NCBI GenBank assembly: GCA_003645645.1
Contig: QNBH01000003.1
Coordinates: 1-46,807 of the forward strand
Direction of reading: 5' to 3'
DNA length: 46,807 bases
Source: Spirochaetota bacterium
GTDB lineage: Bacteria; Spirochaetota; Spirochaetia; SPDA01; B32-G16
The notes below the pieces were generated by a model. It was not told the origin of the DNA, did no database searches, and saw only the letters and a program-made list of their open reading frames with translations. A program made the position numbers and the translations under genes. Positions 9,599 to 41,871 of the stretch are shown piece after piece; position 1 is the stretch's first letter, and each line of letters begins with the position of its first letter.

Positions 9599-10270
9599 AT
9601 GAAGCGAGGTAAGAAATATCAGGAAGCAATAAAGAAGCTTAACAGAAATGAAAAATACTCCTACGATAAGGCATTGTGCATTTTAAAGGATATTGCCTAT
9701 GCAAACTTTGACGAAACAGTAGAACTGGCATTGAGACTTAACCTTAAGAAGAGTGAAACGGTGAGAGATACTCTTGTGCTGCCCAATCAATTTAAAAAGG
9801 AGAAGAAAATACTTGTATTTGCAAAAGGCGACAAGGCTAAAGAAGCCGAAGAAGCCGGTGCCACCTACGTAGGAGACGAAGACTTGATTGAAAAGATAAA
9901 AAATGGATGGCTGGATTTTGATGTTGCAGTAGCTACCCCGGATATGATGAAAAGTGTGGGAAAGCTGGGTCCTGTTCTCGGACGACGGGGTTTAATGCCG
10001 AACCCTAAAACAAAAACCGTAACTTTCGATATTAAAGAGGCTCTGGAAGAACTAAAAAAAGGTAGAGTAGAATACCGCTCGGATAAAACCGGTGTTGTGC
10101 ATATGGCAGTGGGAAAGCTCTCCATGGAAAATGAGAAATTGCTGGAAAATGTAAACCTGGTAGTATCTGAGATAAGGAGGAAAAAACCGGCAGACACGAA
10201 AGGCGAGTTTATTCTCTCTGCAGCGCTCTCAACAACCATGAGTCCCGGTGTAAAAATTGCGACAAAATAG
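9599..10270 (+). CDS. rplA: 50S ribosomal protein uL1
   Basis: The 223-aa protein has the L1 signature GKLGPVLGRRGLMPNPKTKTV and the two-domain layout. L1 lies at the mobile stalk near the E site. In many bacteria it also represses its own rplK-rplA mRNA by binding a leader that mimics rRNA. I looked in the 90-bp rplK leader and saw no clear mimic. The start is 3 bp after rplK, so translation is probably coupled. Confidence 0.97.
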   Translation: MKRGKKYQEAIKKLNRNEKYSYDKALCILKDIAYANFDETVELALRLNLKKSETVRDTLVLPNQFKKEKKILVFAKGDKAKEAEEAGATYVGDEDLIEKIKNGWLDFDVAVATPDMMKSVGKLGPVLGRRGLMPNPKTKTVTFDIKEALEELKKGRVEYRSDKTGVVHMAVGKLSMENEKLLENVNLVVSEIRRKKPADTKGEFILSAALSTTMSPGVKIATK

Positions 10271-10296
10271 AATGTTTAGAGGAAGGAGAAGGATAA

Positions 10297-10845
10297 ATGG
10301 CAGAAGGAGAGAAGAAAATACAACAATATAAAATTGAGATGGTAAAAGAGCTCAAGGATAAGTTTAAGAGCACGAAAGACTATATATTTACCAACTACAG
10401 AGGATTAAATGTAGAACAGATAACGGATTTAAGAAGAAAATTAAGAGAAAAAAATGCCGAATACAGGATAATAAAGAATAGATTTGCAAGAATTGCAATG
10501 GAGCAACTGGAATTACCCGATGTAGGTGATCAGCTTAGAGATCCCACTGCTGTTGCGCTTTCCAGGGATGACGAAGTCAACGAGGTGGTAAAAATTCTCT
10601 CTGGTTTTAAGAAGGAGACATCCCTCCAGATAAAGGGTGCTCTTATCGGCGGCAGGATATACAACGGTACAGAGGTAGAGGCTTTTTCCAGGCTGCCATC
10701 TAAGCAGGAACTTATTGCAAAACTTGCTGTTACCATGAACGCACCTTTACAAAACCTTGTATTTGTTTTAAATGGTGTTACCAGTAAACTGGTAAGAACG
10801 ATACAAGCAATAGCAGATAGAAAAGCAGGTGATAAAGAAAAATAA
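10297..10845 (+). CDS. rplJ: 50S ribosomal protein uL10
   Basis: The 182-aa protein has the L10 core (YIFTNYRGLNVEQITDLRRKLR, then YRIIKNRFARIAME) and a C-terminal helix that carries L7/L12 dimers. The N-terminus is a few residues longer than in E. coli. An AGGAAGGAGAAGG ribosome-binding site precedes the ATG. The rplJ-rplL-rpoB-rpoC order is conserved. Confidence 0.97.
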   Translation: MAEGEKKIQQYKIEMVKELKDKFKSTKDYIFTNYRGLNVEQITDLRRKLREKNAEYRIIKNRFARIAMEQLELPDVGDQLRDPTAVALSRDDEVNEVVKILSGFKKETSLQIKGALIGGRIYNGTEVEAFSRLPSKQELIAKLAVTMNAPLQNLVFVLNGVTSKLVRTIQAIADRKAGDKEK

Positions 10846-35743: not shown

Positions 35744-38617
35744 ATGAAGCTTCTAAAAAAGTTTGCTATAAGTCTTCTCATTACAGTCATTATGTTCAGT
35801 GCTTTCTCTCTACTCGCCTTCTCGGGCCTATTCGAAATCATAGAAACGAGATTCTACGATCAAAGGGTCACAAAAGAGATAGAGAGAGAGTTAAATCGGA
35901 CTTACTCAATTATTTCGGAGTTTCACCAAAAAAATATAGATCGTTTTCATTCTATTCTTACTTTAGATTCTGTAAAGAGAGTTTTTCTGCCCAATCAGAG
36001 TCAGGAAGATATATTCAGACGTGATACCATCTTTGAAAATCTTAAAAGCGAGTTCCCGGGAATATTGTATGTACGCTTTGTAGATACCAAGGGAAATATA
36101 CATTTCAGCACTTACGAAAACGATCTCCTTAAGAGAACCGATTTTAATATAGTCTATAAAAATCTAAAAGAAGTTGATAGAGAAATTCCTCAGGAAAAAT
36201 TGATTTTAAATGAAGGGGAAGAGATAAATAATATCATCGACGAATCCAGACAGGTAGTAATATATCAACTACCTTTTTACGATAATCTTGGCATTTATAA
36301 GGGGACTGTACTTTTTTATCTTTCAACAAAGAGTTTAAGGAATCTAATGCTCTCAAGGGGTATACTGCAACCTGGTCAGGATTTCTCTCTTGTCCACGAA
36401 TTAGGATATGTTTTTTATACTGATCTTGTGCAAAACGAGACGCTAAAAAGGGAGATCAAAACAGAGTGGGAATCATACAATAAAGGAAAAGAGATCGTAC
36501 TCCTGGCTTCAACAGATTTGAGAAAGCGCTTTTTCCTTTTTACCAGATACTCTGAGTGGTTTGGATTTGTAGGCTTTGTAATACCGGAAGATGTTTTTTC
36601 AATAAGTGATAGTCTGAAAGTAATTCTACTGGCAGCTTTTTTTATTACCACATTCCTGATCGTATTTCTGCTTCTCAACATAAAACAGGATAAACTGCTG
36701 GTTCTCTCGGAAAGGGTAAAGAGGTTTCAGATCAGATTCCTCAATGAGTTTATTGAAAATAAAGAAACAGTTGACTGGGAAAAATGGCAGAGTGAATTGA
36801 GGCTACTAAGGGAAGATGTAAAAAATCAGATAAAACGGGGGTTGGGAAAGTTAAAAGACAGAGAAGAGGAGAGTGTAGACCTACTTATTGATAAAAGCTG
36901 GGATGATATTATATCTACCTTGACCAGCATGGCTGAAAGGAAGAAGGGTGTAATAGAGAGCAGGATCGAAATTGCAAATCTGGAACAGGTTATCGAGAAG
37001 GTTTTAAAGAAGGGAAGATTTGCCTTACCGGTAGAGGTGAAAGGGCGGACTTCTGAAAAAAGGATAGAGAAGGTTGTTTCCGGAGAAGCCGGGTTTCATC
37101 CTACCGAAGAAAAAATAAAGGAACCCGAGGAGCTCGAAGAGGCAGAATCTGTTGGGGAGGTCGAAGAGGTTGAAGAACAGCTGGAAGAAATCGAAGAGGA
37201 GGAAGCCGAAGAGCTAGAGGAAATCGAAGAATTAAAGGAACCGGAAGAAGCACAGCCTGTTGGTGAGGTTGAAGAGCCGGAATACCTTGAAGAAGCAGAA
37301 CCGGCAGAAGAAGCGGAGGAAGTGGAAGAGATCGAAGAGGCAGAACCTGAGGAAGAAGCCGAGGAAGTTGAGGAATTGGAAGAGGCGGAACCGGTTGAAG
37401 AGGTTGAAGAGGTTGAAGAAGTTGAAGAAGTTGAGGAGGAGGAGGAGGAAGTCGAGGAGCTTGAAGGATTTGAAGAAGAACAACCTGTAGAAATCGAAGA
37501 AGAGGAATCCGAAGAAGCTGAAGAGGTAGAGGAAATTGAAGAGCTGGCAGCGATTGATATAGAACCTCTACCTGTTGAGGTCGAAGAGGAAGAATTAGAG
37601 GAGCTGCAAACGGTCGAAGAGACAGATATGGAGGAGGAATTACACCTTGAGAAAGTTTCCGGTGGATATAACGGCTACAGTATTTTCTCGAGGGGTGGTC
37701 CCGGAGAGTTCAATACACCTGTTAATTGGAAGGTATATATGTACGGTGAATCTGGTATGGAAGATGAAGAGCCTGCTTCTCTGGAAGAGATAGAGGAACC
37801 AGCAACAGAGCGATTAGCATTGGAGGAGAATCCAGCAGAAACGGATAATATCAAACTTCTTGACAAGCTCAGCCGCGAGAAAAAAATTGAATATTGCTCT
37901 ATAAGTGATGTAAAAGAGAAATTAATTCGTTTAACAGATGCCGTTGAAACTGATAGAAACGGTGTTTTACAAATTAAAGAGGAGGTATTTAACGAGAAAC
38001 TTTTTCCTAAGGATAATCAGTTTAAAGATCTTGCCGATAAAATAATTCAGGAAACGGAAAAGAAGAAGACATCTGCCGGTATTGAAACTCTCTACGGAGG
38101 AGAAGATATAGAGCTGCCAATTTCTCAGGTGGAGGAGGTAAGAGGAGAAGAGCGTAACGAGGTTTTGCCTTCTTTTCGTGATAACGGATTCGATTTTGAT
38201 TCTTTAATAAAGTACTTTGGTTTCAGACATATGCGAGTTATGAAATCTCTTCGGAGAATCTCAAAGAGTTTAAGGGCTCTTTCTGCCTCAATCCTCTTGA
38301 GCGAGAACGAAACACTTAAGAATAAAACATCCATAGGACTGGATGAGCATAGTAGAAAATCTTTTTTAATAGATAAGAAACACCTTTTATACAAATATTT
38401 TCTGCACAATCGAATGCTTCTGTTGATCCGTTTCCCAATAGACGGAACAATTGAATCACAAATCCCTCTATCCGCAGAAGATAGAAAAGCTATAGGGGGA
38501 TGCCTGTTCATTCCAATAATTTTCGAGAAAGAAGAAGCCTATCTTTTCCTCGGTCTTAAAACTCTAAACTTCTCCCTGTTGGAAGCGGTAAAAGTATTTG
38601 TTGATTTAAGCTGGTAA
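35744..38617 (+). CDS. Large membrane protein: Cache-like sensor domain, Glu-rich linker, GAF-like C-terminus
   Basis: The 957-aa protein has a first membrane span at about residues 8-30 and an extracytoplasmic domain of about 260 residues. That domain looks like a double-Cache sensor (FPGILYVRFVDTKGNIHFST; VIYQLPFYDNLGIYKGTVLFYLS). A second span lies at about 293-314. A charged cytoplasmic helix region follows. Residues about 450-632 are very rich in Glu with Val, Ala and Pro, partly built from 9-bp tandem repeats. The last 120 residues (RMLLLIRFPIDGT, GGCLFIPIIFEKEEAYLFLGLK) look like a GAF-type fold. No kinase, cyclase or methyl-accepting domain was found. It follows the alpha operon but has its own promoter. 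The function is unknown; a signal-sensing or scaffold role is plausible. The domain names rest on pattern only. Confidence 0.75.
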   Translation: MKLLKKFAISLLITVIMFSAFSLLAFSGLFEIIETRFYDQRVTKEIERELNRTYSIISEFHQKNIDRFHSILTLDSVKRVFLPNQSQEDIFRRDTIFENLKSEFPGILYVRFVDTKGNIHFSTYENDLLKRTDFNIVYKNLKEVDREIPQEKLILNEGEEINNIIDESRQVVIYQLPFYDNLGIYKGTVLFYLSTKSLRNLMLSRGILQPGQDFSLVHELGYVFYTDLVQNETLKREIKTEWESYNKGKEIVLLASTDLRKRFFLFTRYSEWFGFVGFVIPEDVFSISDSLKVILLAAFFITTFLIVFLLLNIKQDKLLVLSERVKRFQIRFLNEFIENKETVDWEKWQSELRLLREDVKNQIKRGLGKLKDREEESVDLLIDKSWDDIISTLTSMAERKKGVIESRIEIANLEQVIEKVLKKGRFALPVEVKGRTSEKRIEKVVSGEAGFHPTEEKIKEPEELEEAESVGEVEEVEEQLEEIEEEEAEELEEIEELKEPEEAQPVGEVEEPEYLEEAEPAEEAEEVEEIEEAEPEEEAEEVEELEEAEPVEEVEEVEEVEEVEEEEEEVEELEGFEEEQPVEIEEEESEEAEEVEEIEELAAIDIEPLPVEVEEEELEELQTVEETDMEEELHLEKVSGGYNGYSIFSRGGPGEFNTPVNWKVYMYGESGMEDEEPASLEEIEEPATERLALEENPAETDNIKLLDKLSREKKIEYCSISDVKEKLIRLTDAVETDRNGVLQIKEEVFNEKLFPKDNQFKDLADKIIQETEKKKTSAGIETLYGGEDIELPISQVEEVRGEERNEVLPSFRDNGFDFDSLIKYFGFRHMRVMKSLRRISKSLRALSASILLSENETLKNKTSIGLDEHSRKSFLIDKKHLLYKYFLHNRMLLLIRFPIDGTIESQIPLSAEDRKAIGGCLFIPIIFEKEEAYLFLGLKTLNFSLLEAVKVFVDLSW

Positions 38618-38738: not shown

Positions 38739-40268
38739 ATGTCTATATTATTTTATATCATGCTTCCTCTCACTGGTTTGATTCTAGGTTGGACTATCAG
38801 ATGGCTTTATGCCAGATTTCAACTTTCTTCAGTAGAACAGAAAGCAGAACGCATCCGGCAGGATGCGATAAAGGAGGCGGAAGCCCAAAAAAAAGAAGTT
38901 ATTCTAGAAGCAAAAGACGAATTACTTCGTGAGAGAAATCAACAGGAACGGGAATTTAGAGAACGAAGAAATGAATTACAGCGATTCGAAAGGCGTTTAT
39001 TACAAAGAGAGGAAAACCTAGAAAGAAAGACGTCTGCACGGGATAAACTGGCGCAGTCTCTATCAGACCGTGAGGGGAATTTGATTCAAAAAGAAACTAT
39101 CTTAAATAAAGAAGAAGAGAGGTTAAAAAAAGAACTAGAAAAAATAGCGAAAATAACCAAAGAAGAAGCAAAAAATTTAATAATCCAGTCTATGCAGGAA
39201 GAGTCGCGCAGAGATGCGCAGGTCCTTGTGAATAAAATCGAAGAAGAAGCCAGGGCGTCTGCCGAGAAAAAGGCAAGAGAAATTCTCGTAACCACCATGC
39301 AAAGACTCGCAACAGAAACCAGCTCGGAGATGACCGTTACTTCTGTAAATCTTCCCAATGATGAAATGAAGGGCAGGATAATCGGAAGAGAGGGCAGAAA
39401 TATCAGAACCCTGGAAACACTAACAGGTGTTGATATCATTATTGATGATACTCCCGAAGCCGTGGTTATCTCCTGTTTCGATCCCATCAGAAGGGAGATA
39501 TCAAGGATAGCTCTTGAAAGACTGATTGCTGATGGCAGAATTCATCCTGCCAGAATCGAAGAAATCGTTCAAAAAGTTACAAAAGAGATCAGTCAGAAAA
39601 TTATTGAAGAGGGGGAAAGGGTCGTATTTGATCTTGGCATTCACAACATGACCCATGAGGGTATTCGAGCTCTGGGTAGACTCTTCTTCAGATCCAGTTA
39701 TGGTCAGAACGTTCTAATGCATTCAAAAGAGGTAGCGGTTATTGCAGGGATGATAGCAGCCGAAGTAGGTGCAGATCAGGAAATTGCAAAAAAGGCTGCT
39801 TTGCTTCACGATATCGGAAAGGGGATCGAAACAGAGAGTAACGGTAACCATGCAGAGATAGGGGCCGAGCTTGCCCGGAAAATGGGAGAAGATCCGCGAA
39901 TTATTAACTCTATTGTGGCTCATCATAATGATGTGGAACCAAACTGCATAGAATCTGTGATAGTACAGGTAGCTGATGCGATTTCGGCATCCAGACCGGG
40001 AGCAAGGAGGGAGAGCCTGGATAATTACATAAAAAGGCTCGAAAATCTGGAAAATATTGCCGAAAGTTTCAAGGGTGTTGACAAGGCTTATGCCATTCAG
40101 GCCGGCAGAGAGCTACGTATAATCGTAAATAATGAAGTGGTAAATGATGAGCAGGCAAAGGAAATGGCCAAAGAAATTTCAAAAAAGATCGAAACACAAC
40201 TTCGTTATCCCGGCAGGATTAAGGTTACTATTATAAGAGAAACAAGAATAATAGAGTATGCCCGATAG
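38739..40268 (+). CDS. rny: Ribonuclease Y
   Basis: The 509-aa protein has an N-terminal membrane anchor (MSILFYIMLPLTGLILGWTI). A long coiled coil of charged residues (about 30-190) follows. A KH RNA-binding domain comes next (GRIIGREGRNIRTLETLTGV, about 208-230). The HD hydrolase domain has the metal pair His357-Asp358 (LLHDIGKG) and AHHND downstream. RNase Y starts mRNA decay at the membrane. ATG 38739 is used because GGGGGAAG lies upstream; an in-frame TTG at 38706 overlaps the -10 box. The stop codon is in the loop of a perfect hairpin. The next gene starts 36 bp later. Confidence 0.96.
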   Translation: MSILFYIMLPLTGLILGWTIRWLYARFQLSSVEQKAERIRQDAIKEAEAQKKEVILEAKDELLRERNQQEREFRERRNELQRFERRLLQREENLERKTSARDKLAQSLSDREGNLIQKETILNKEEERLKKELEKIAKITKEEAKNLIIQSMQEESRRDAQVLVNKIEEEARASAEKKAREILVTTMQRLATETSSEMTVTSVNLPNDEMKGRIIGREGRNIRTLETLTGVDIIIDDTPEAVVISCFDPIRREISRIALERLIADGRIHPARIEEIVQKVTKEISQKIIEEGERVVFDLGIHNMTHEGIRALGRLFFRSSYGQNVLMHSKEVAVIAGMIAAEVGADQEIAKKAALLHDIGKGIETESNGNHAEIGAELARKMGEDPRIINSIVAHHNDVEPNCIESVIVQVADAISASRPGARRESLDNYIKRLENLENIAESFKGVDKAYAIQAGRELRIIVNNEVVNDEQAKEMAKEISKKIETQLRYPGRIKVTIIRETRIIEYAR

Positions 40269-40279
40269 GGCATACTCTA
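40252..40279 (+). other. Perfect 12-bp hairpin across the rny stop codon
   Basis: TAGAGTATGCCC (40252-40263), loop GATA, GGGCATACTCTA (40268-40279). The rny stop TAG (40266-40268) starts in the loop. There is no T-tract behind it (GAATATTATTTC), so it is not a standard terminator. It could be a stabiliser, a processing site or an attenuator between rny and the next gene. Confidence 0.75.
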
Positions 40280-40304: not shown

Positions 40305-41099
40305 GTGTCAGACATCTTAAATGTTCTCTTCCTGGGTGATGTTGTGGGTCGCCCGGGTTGCAGAGCACTTTTTATAGGTCTCAAAACCCTTTCAAAGAAG
40401 TATAACTCCGATCTTGTAATAGTAAATGGAGAAAATGCCGCAGAGGGATTCGGAATAACTCCTGTGATTGCAGACCAGTTCTTTACTTCTGGAGTGGACA
40501 TAATTACCACAGGTAATCATATCTGGCAGAAAGAAGAAATACTTACCTATATGAGTGTAAACCCCCGCATATTACGACCCGAGAACTATCCAGATGGTGC
40601 TCCGGGAAAGGGGTACTGTACCTATAAGGTAAAGGGTTTTGATGTGGCGGTAATAAATTTGCAGGGGCGAGTAAGAATGATGAATCTGAATTGCCCCTTC
40701 ATATACGGGAGAAAACTTGTAAAAAAACTTAAAAAAAATACAAATATTATTATTGTAGATTTTCATGCAGAGGATCCCGAAGAGAAAGAATCTCTCGGTA
40801 TGTATCTGGACGGTCTGGTAACAGCAGTCCTGGGAACGCATACCCATGTGCAGACTGGAGATGAGAGAATTATGCCCGGAGGCACGGCATATATTTCTGA
40901 TGTCGGAATGATCGGTCCTGTGAATAGTGTAATAGGATTCGACAAAAATATTGCCTTAAAAAGGTCGCTCACCCAGATGCCTCTTAAAATGGTAGTTGCC
41001 GAAAATCCCGCCGTTATCAACGGAGTGTTTCTCCAAATTGATACAGCAACAGGAAAAGCCAAAAAGATAGAAAGAATATGGGAGATGTGCTCTGTCTAG
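40305..41099 (+). CDS. TIGR00282-family metallophosphoesterase (YmdB-like)
   Basis: The 264-aa protein has calcineurin-like metal motifs in order: GDVVGRPG, NGENAAEGFGI, TGNHIWQKEE, FHAEDPEEKESLG, GTHTHVQTGD and ISDVGMIGP. This matches the family of Bacillus YmdB, a 2',3'-cyclic-nucleotide phosphodiesterase that is often the neighbour of rny, as here. It is cytoplasmic and starts with GTG (AAGGA 8 nt before). Its end overlaps the probable tlyA start. The enzymatic substrate in this organism is inferred from the family. Confidence 0.92.
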   Translation: MSDILNVLFLGDVVGRPGCRALFIGLKTLSKKYNSDLVIVNGENAAEGFGITPVIADQFFTSGVDIITTGNHIWQKEEILTYMSVNPRILRPENYPDGAPGKGYCTYKVKGFDVAVINLQGRVRMMNLNCPFIYGRKLVKKLKKNTNIIIVDFHAEDPEEKESLGMYLDGLVTAVLGTHTHVQTGDERIMPGGTAYISDVGMIGPVNSVIGFDKNIALKRSLTQMPLKMVVAENPAVINGVFLQIDTATGKAKKIERIWEMCSV

Positions 41100-41871
41100 T
41101 AGAAAGACACTTCTGGATATTCTTTCTCAACGCTATCCCGACTTTTCACGCAAAGAACTTTCTGCAATGGTGATGTGCGGAGAAGTTATGGTAAACGGGG
41201 AGACTCTAAGGTTTCCCCGCATAGTAATTCCGGAAGACTCAATTATCTCTCTCAAGATTAAAGATTATGTCTCACGCGGAGGGGTTAAACTTGAGTTTGC
41301 TTTGAAAAAATGGAATATTGGTGTTGCGGGAAAAGTATTCATAGATGTAGGAGCCTCCACCGGTGGATTCACCCATTGTCTTCTTAAGCATGGAGCAGAA
41401 AATGTTCATGCAGTCGATGTTGGGTACAACCTTATTGATTACTCATTGAGACAGGACAGCAGAGTATTATTGCATGAAAGAATCAACATAATGGATGTAA
41501 AGGAGCTTTTTCCGGAACCACAGGCTGCAGTGGTCGATTTATCCTTTCGCTCGATTACAGGAGCCGCCTCTCATATTCTCAATCTGGTTTCGGAGAAATG
41601 GCTTATCGCTCTGATAAAACCGCAGTTTGAATGGCAAGATCCTGATAAACGGTTCAGAGGGGTAATAAAAGATAAAGGGGATCTCCTTAGAGTTATGAAA
41701 AATGTGGTAGACTCCCTGTGGGAAGAAAAGGCTTTTGTTACAAAGACTCTCCCCTCACCCATAAAAGGGAGGAAGGGGAATGTGGAGTTTTTATTTCTTA
41801 TTCAGGACTCGGAGGATAAATGCAGAGAGGAAATCCTGGAACGTCTCAAATTTGCCGTTAAAACTCTATAA
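41092..41871 (+). CDS. tlyA: TlyA-family rRNA (cytidine-2'-O)-methyltransferase
   Basis: The protein has an S4 RNA-binding domain (RKTLLDILSQRYPDFSRKEL, then VMCGEVMVNGETL). An FtsJ-like AdoMet methyltransferase domain follows, with FIDVGASTGGFTHCLLKHGA, AVDVGY, VVDLSFRSI and ALIKPQFE. The family methylates 16S and 23S rRNA and affects capreomycin sensitivity. The first ordinary start codon, ATG 41167, would remove two thirds of the S4 domain. In-frame similarity continues upstream to a stop at 41068, and the only candidate there is CTG 41092, behind GGGAGA and overlapping the stop codon of the previous gene. I use 41092 (259 aa), as a CTG start with coupled translation; the start remains uncertain. 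Confidence 0.9.
   Translation: MSSRKTLLDILSQRYPDFSRKELSAMVMCGEVMVNGETLRFPRIVIPEDSIISLKIKDYVSRGGVKLEFALKKWNIGVAGKVFIDVGASTGGFTHCLLKHGAENVHAVDVGYNLIDYSLRQDSRVLLHERINIMDVKELFPEPQAAVVDLSFRSITGAASHILNLVSEKWLIALIKPQFEWQDPDKRFRGVIKDKGDLLRVMKNVVDSLWEEKAFVTKTLPSPIKGRKGNVEFLFLIQDSEDKCREEILERLKFAVKTL

Follow-up and report, generated by a model that had tools for sequence, protein, structure and literature searches.

The window analysed here, that is, the whole stretch of 46,807 nucleotides of a contig from a Spirochaetota bacterium, carries ymdB and tlyA one after the other on the forward strand. The ymdB gene (TIGR00282/PF13277 metallophosphoesterase family) runs from a GTG start at 40305 to the TAG stop at 41097-41099, and the Pfam YmdB model is matched through its final position at residue 258 of the 264 residues. 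Just upstream of ymdB, a perfect inverted repeat (40252-40279) lies right where another gene terminates (stop codon ending at 40268). An ORF of 957 amino acids elsewhere in the window (35744-38617) contains a long central region that is repetitive, rich in Glu and Val and highly acidic.

The tlyA frame is bounded on its upstream side by an in-frame TAG (41068-41070), is open from there onward, and ends with a stop at 41871. Reading the frame confirmed what a preliminary description of this DNA had stated, namely that no ordinary start lies between the stop at 41068 and the ATG at 41167: ATG, GTG and TTG are all absent from 41071 to 41166, and ATG 41167-41169 is the first ordinary start. The most likely start codon is a CTG at 41092-41094, as judged from homology, the starts of relatives and the Shine-Dalgarno (SD)-like sequence. 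Counted from this codon, tlyA (41092-41871) would encode a putative TlyA-family rRNA 2′-O-methyltransferase of 259 amino acids, with ATG 41167 as residue 26. A single substitution turns this CTG into any of the ordinary starts. The SD-like sequence, GGGAGA (41080-41085), is separated from the CTG by 6 nt, or by 7 nt when counted from the GGGAG core (41080-41084); the coordinate of the CTG had been given correctly, but its distance from GGGAGA had been put at 7 nt. The CTG had also been said to overlap the stop codon of the preceding gene, which is slightly off, the ymdB TAG beginning 2 nt past the CTG and the two genes overlapping by 8 nt. The SD-like sequence, the CTG and the ymdB stop all fall within a predicted RNA hairpin (41069-41127) having an 11-bp perfect stem (41069-41079/41117-41127).

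The TlyA family model TIGR00478 (cut-off 185.8 bits) aligns with the CTG-started protein from residue 7 onward (model positions 2-228 of 228) and gives it 204.9 bits. The form started at ATG 41167 scores 14.6 bits lower, at 190.3, and is still above the cut-off. Homology to PDB 3hp7 begins at residue 6, and family homology thus reaches residues 6-7 (41107-41110); the family profile itself aligns from its position 2 onto both 3hp7 and 7s0s, the latter being the structure of M. tuberculosis TlyA bound to the 50S subunit. For the NF049952 equivalog (23S rRNA TlyA), the score was 144.9 bits, under its 250-bit cut-off. The FtsJ-like methyltransferase domain (PF01728) was matched, whereas no Pfam S4 model was listed for the product at E values up to 10, so that the label "S4" depends on the TlyA homology and the predicted fold. 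The S4-domain similarity reported upstream of 41167 therefore stands as TlyA-family homology from residues 6-7, not as a Pfam S4 match. Upstream of residue 26, P16 is invariant in an 11-protein alignment, and conservation reaches 90% or more at L7, L8, L11 and D17.

The AlphaFold model of the CTG-started protein (mean pLDDT 93.2) has a strand at residues 4-6 and helices at 7-14 and 20-28; its input was a 32-sequence alignment in which several of the 31 other rows are cut at residue 10 or 19, making the N-terminus thinner. Starting at residue 26 would remove the predicted strand 4-6, helix 7-14 and most of helix 20-28, and the earlier remark that a start at ATG 41167 truncates the N-terminal domain agrees with this predicted fold. 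The layout of an S4-like N-terminal domain followed by an FtsJ-like domain is present and, going by the predicted N-terminal fold, complete only when translation starts upstream of 41167. Foldseek ranked TlyA-type structures on top, 3hp7 (TMq 0.70) and 3opn followed by 7s0s (TMq 0.77), with a probability of 1.00 for both 3hp7 and 7s0s. Residues K66, D149 and K176, as well as G87, S89 and G91, are invariant in the TlyA family alignments. The B. subtilis TlyA, which methylates 23S and 16S rRNA, is described in PMC12805891 as having a KDK triad and a GxSxG motif. We infer that K66/D149/K176 and G87/S89/G91 correspond to these two elements, and since the invariant residues fit them, the gene looks functional.

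The starts of tlyA in relatives were collected by whole-genome searches of two overlapping sets of 60 and 394 genomes (our own included), of which 54 and 243 gave a match. The order-level search covered 3 genomes, again with our own, and the comparison reaches no nearer than order. Of the 242 other genomes that matched, we kept the best 48 relatives (L002-L049), and added the best 80 of at least 591 relatives from named genome contigs (L050-L129); L050-L053 are the nearest named matches among those listed, all Spirochaetia, and L045 and L050 resemble each other and are possibly one species counted twice. Between the in-frame stop upstream and residue 13, 124 of the 128 other loci (129 with our own) contain an ordinary codon. 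The four loci lacking one are L084 and L091, which are cut by contig ends, L099 and L079. In L079 (a MAG labelled Chloroflexota), an ACG around position 1501 stands at codon +1, where tlyA is expected to start, and overlaps the last part of the preceding gene; the first ordinary codon is located about 20 codons further inside; this is possibly a second near-cognate start, or an error. In L099 (a MAG labelled Nitrospina), the N-terminal residues of tlyA are in another frame beside an A-run (around 1400-1501), either a frameshift or an assembly error.

In every one of the 52 loci L002-L053, an ordinary start (45 ATG, 6 GTG and 1 TTG) is found between codons -6 and +3 relative to CTG 41092. It is at codon +1 in 34 loci and within -1 to +3 in 46, figures for which the codon nearest +1 was counted when several fitted, a choice favouring +1 somewhat. 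Against a CUG start, none of the 128 other loci demonstrably needs a CTG. As none of them demonstrably needs it and the comparison stops at the level of the order, there is no sign of selection keeping the CTG.

The initiation signal was compared with a sample of 447 kb of this genome (the window and 20 further stretches, about a ninth of the genome), in which a simple script predicted 370 genes. GGGAG before CTG 41092 pairs with the anti-SD at -7.3 kcal/mol; the median at the 370 gene starts, chosen by a rule somewhat favouring better SDs, is -6.4. Only 8.1% of in-frame internal CTGs have an SD as good. The values for ATG 41167 (-1.1 kcal/mol) and for CTG 41113 and ATT 41119 (-1.2 each) are far weaker. 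However, the neighbouring codon TCT 41095 scores better than the CTG, at -7.7 kcal/mol, and the SD therefore places the start only to about one codon. A stretch of 32 codons without ATG, GTG or TTG is expected in 24% of random cases, so the missing ordinary codon says little by itself. CTG makes up 2.1% of codons, which gives a chance of 10% of finding one in a 5-codon stretch, and of about 0.8% of finding one with an equally good SD. It is the coincidences that are unlikely by chance: the absence meets a conserved protein, and a CTG with a good SD sits where 46 of the 52 relatives start. The hexamer coding potential of the tlyA extension ranked 30 of 122 and did not single it out, which argues against a strong ab initio case.

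The same sample was used to ask whether such starts are a habit of this genome. In 38 genes with a length of 100 codons or more, the frame stays open for 60 nt or more ahead of the first ATG, GTG or TTG; NCBIfam was run on all of them and Pfam also on ten. Only tlyA (1/38) had a family model whose match both included the opening model positions and began ahead of the first ordinary start. Six of the 38 had no NCBIfam match (L133:5852, L138:4074, L147:15036, L138:31, L142:1100 and L133:2752). Two frames of one contig (L149) were discarded as candidates because their upstream matches begin in mid-model and the genes look broken. The first (10138-10710) joins in one frame a partial HigA-like antitoxin, the opening part of that model being unmatched, to a downstream DhiT-like toxin domain; the second (818-2569) has a caspase-like domain matched from mid-model and then surface-repeat matches, and looks truncated. 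Also rejected were a GntR-type gene (L146:16878), for which two minor models start 4-5 residues upstream but the best model starts downstream, and L148:10815, with a single minor model starting 1 residue upstream. Genome-wide use of CTG thus has no sign in its favour in the ninth or so of the genome sampled, and tlyA is a one-off, which counts against a CUG start. In another part of the sample (L138, 12053-14371 and 17980-19968), genes for the catalytic subunits of acetyl-CoA synthase and CO dehydrogenase were observed; judging by these genes, the organism may carry the Wood-Ljungdahl pathway.

A relaxed initiator tRNA was likewise unsupported. The pattern of the initiator anticodon stem-loop had one exact occurrence and another with a single mismatch; a backwards control occurred twice as well, so the pattern alone proves nothing. 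ARAGORN placed a tRNA-Met with the usual GGG/CCC anticodon stem at the locus of the exact match, which offers no special tolerance of CUG and again speaks against a CUG start. In E. coli, infC starts with AUU; we also looked for a rarer start in the infC of this genome, which by eye appears to start with TTG.

The pairing of tlyA with ymdB is common in relatives. The ymdB gene is on the same strand in 51 of the 52 loci, and in 47 of these 51 the spacing is between -4 and +13 nt, including ten 4-nt and three 1-nt overlaps; the outliers are at -22, 32, 43 and 978 nt. The SDs of tlyA in the relatives are weak, with a median of -2.3 kcal/mol (n = 52). Since tight spacing is so common, translational coupling is plausible, and the weak SDs in relatives would fit it too. 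The short overlap classes described in PMC10666635 are -4, -1 and -8 nt, of which -8 couples less well than the shorter ones. In one of two models of coupling outlined in PMC12548453, a hairpin over the downstream ribosome-binding site is opened by upstream translation; the same text cites work in which structure just past the upstream stop codon lowered coupling, which argues against a hairpin that aids it.

The predicted hairpin at 41069-41127 has a folding energy of -20.2 kcal/mol and a z-score of -2.76, which is optimistic, as its window was picked after the fold had been seen; 2 of 200 shuffles were equally stable. Equal stability was found at 4.3% of 369 gene starts and in 9.9% of 1029 random internal windows. 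The 447 kb contain 55 perfect stems of at least 11 bp whose loops measure 3-40 nt; 13 fall in mostly coding sequence and two span predicted gene starts, tlyA (entered with its ATG) being outside these two. Over 53 loci (our own included) the mean z was -0.18, and the hairpin is thus not conserved, although L031, L028 and L007 are individually below -2. We therefore take the predicted hairpin at the tlyA start as a lead only. That the CUG is a kept regulatory device, in which this hairpin would lock the SD and CUG until a ribosome finishes ymdB, and TlyA would be held low by ymdB translation and IF3 discrimination, seems to us quite improbable.

Translation of tlyA from CUG 41092, probably coupled to that of ymdB, is our best reading, with a probability of about 0.6. 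An intact tlyA would be translated from this codon, read by the initiator fMet-tRNA, with the GGGAG element placing the ribosome. Termination of ymdB just downstream would probably help, by termination-reinitiation or by unfolding of the 41069-41127 hairpin. The product would be a complete TlyA rRNA 2′-O-methyltransferase including its N-terminal domain; its enzyme activity is presumed from the family, and the weak CUG codon may hold its production at a low level linked to ymdB. The frame, the homology, the position relative to the starts of relatives, the SD match and the overlap are all in keeping with the original proposal that tlyA starts at the CTG, the doubt that stays with this proposal being an ordinary start hidden by a sequence error.

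According to this main rival, an error in the sequence or assembly, or a minor strain variant, conceals a true ATG, GTG or TTG at 41092 or close by, which would make tlyA an ordinary gene. One base change is enough, the assembly consists of 380 contigs with 4.12% contamination, and an ordinary start is the rule in the other loci (124/128); the N-terminus in another frame beside an A-run in L099 is trouble typical of such assemblies. On the other hand, ymdB is matched to the end of its model, and homology in the tlyA frame sets in at residue 6-7. Both frames thus read well, which makes an indel improbable; a substitution would need to strike the start codon. The third-frame GTG 41087 needs an indel too and is just 2 nt from the SD core. 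We consider this explanation unlikely, and the one to be taken most seriously after a CUG start.

Recent loss of an ordinary start, leaving either a decaying gene or only a truncated product from ATG 41167, would agree with the absence of an upstream ordinary start and with the poor initiation at CUG described in PMC11497404. However, the whole tlyA frame is open, the residues invariant in the family are retained, those of the N-terminus remain conserved, and ATG 41167 is nearly without an SD (-1.1 kcal/mol), which makes such a loss very unlikely. Scarcely likely, and least of all, is another route into the frame, either initiation at the near-cognate CTG 41113 or ATT 41119 or a frameshift from the ymdB frame (ATG 41085) or the third frame (GTG 41087). 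All four codons exist in the region, but the SDs of CTG 41113 and ATT 41119 are weak and conserved residues would be lost, the ymdB frame ends at 41099, and no slippery run was seen by eye.

If initiation at CUG 41092 is true, tlyA would be one more CUG-started gene beside the few bacterial cases. Gene finders that accept no start other than ATG, GTG and TTG would shorten this TlyA by 25 residues, cutting its N-terminal domain, and the consequences past annotation are small. A limited literature search found no report of a CUG start of tlyA. Two points from the literature weigh against such a start. Reconstructed switches from an ancestral start to CUG are very rare, PMC5622118 counting 2 of 61,358 AUG, 1 of 5,080 GUG and 1 of 2,468 UUG starts. 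According to PMC11497404, AUG, GUG and UUG all give more stable initiation complexes than CUG, at which initiation is inefficient; a variant initiator tRNA, M1, is described there as having a weak first codon-anticodon pair. A CUG start of tlyA would be unusual, yet of a known kind.

The nearest systems are genes whose weak start codons hold expression low at initiation. According to PMC13009471, these include infC (AUA), cvfC1 (AUU) and ccpN (AUA) of S. aureus and pcnB (AUU) of E. coli, and the natural non-canonical starts of S. aureus, which have extended SDs, reach about 10% of AUG for AUU/AUA and up to 30% for ccpN. Our tlyA resembles these genes in combining a weak codon with a good SD, and differs from them in that its codon is CUG, conservation was not seen, and the case is known here from sequence alone. 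As a member of the TlyA family (TIGR00478; 3hp7, 7s0s), it has the whole-model match over the cut-off, the Foldseek probability of 1.00 and the tight spacing to ymdB; unlike its relatives, it has no ATG, GTG or TTG at the start, and it falls under the NF049952 cut-off. It departs from coupled overlapping pairs in its downstream CUG start, its non-conserved hairpin and its -8 nt overlap, said in PMC10666635 to couple less well. With such pairs, as PMC10666635 and PMC12548453 describe them, it shares the -8 nt overlap itself, the tight spacing in relatives and the predicted hairpin at the ribosome-binding site.
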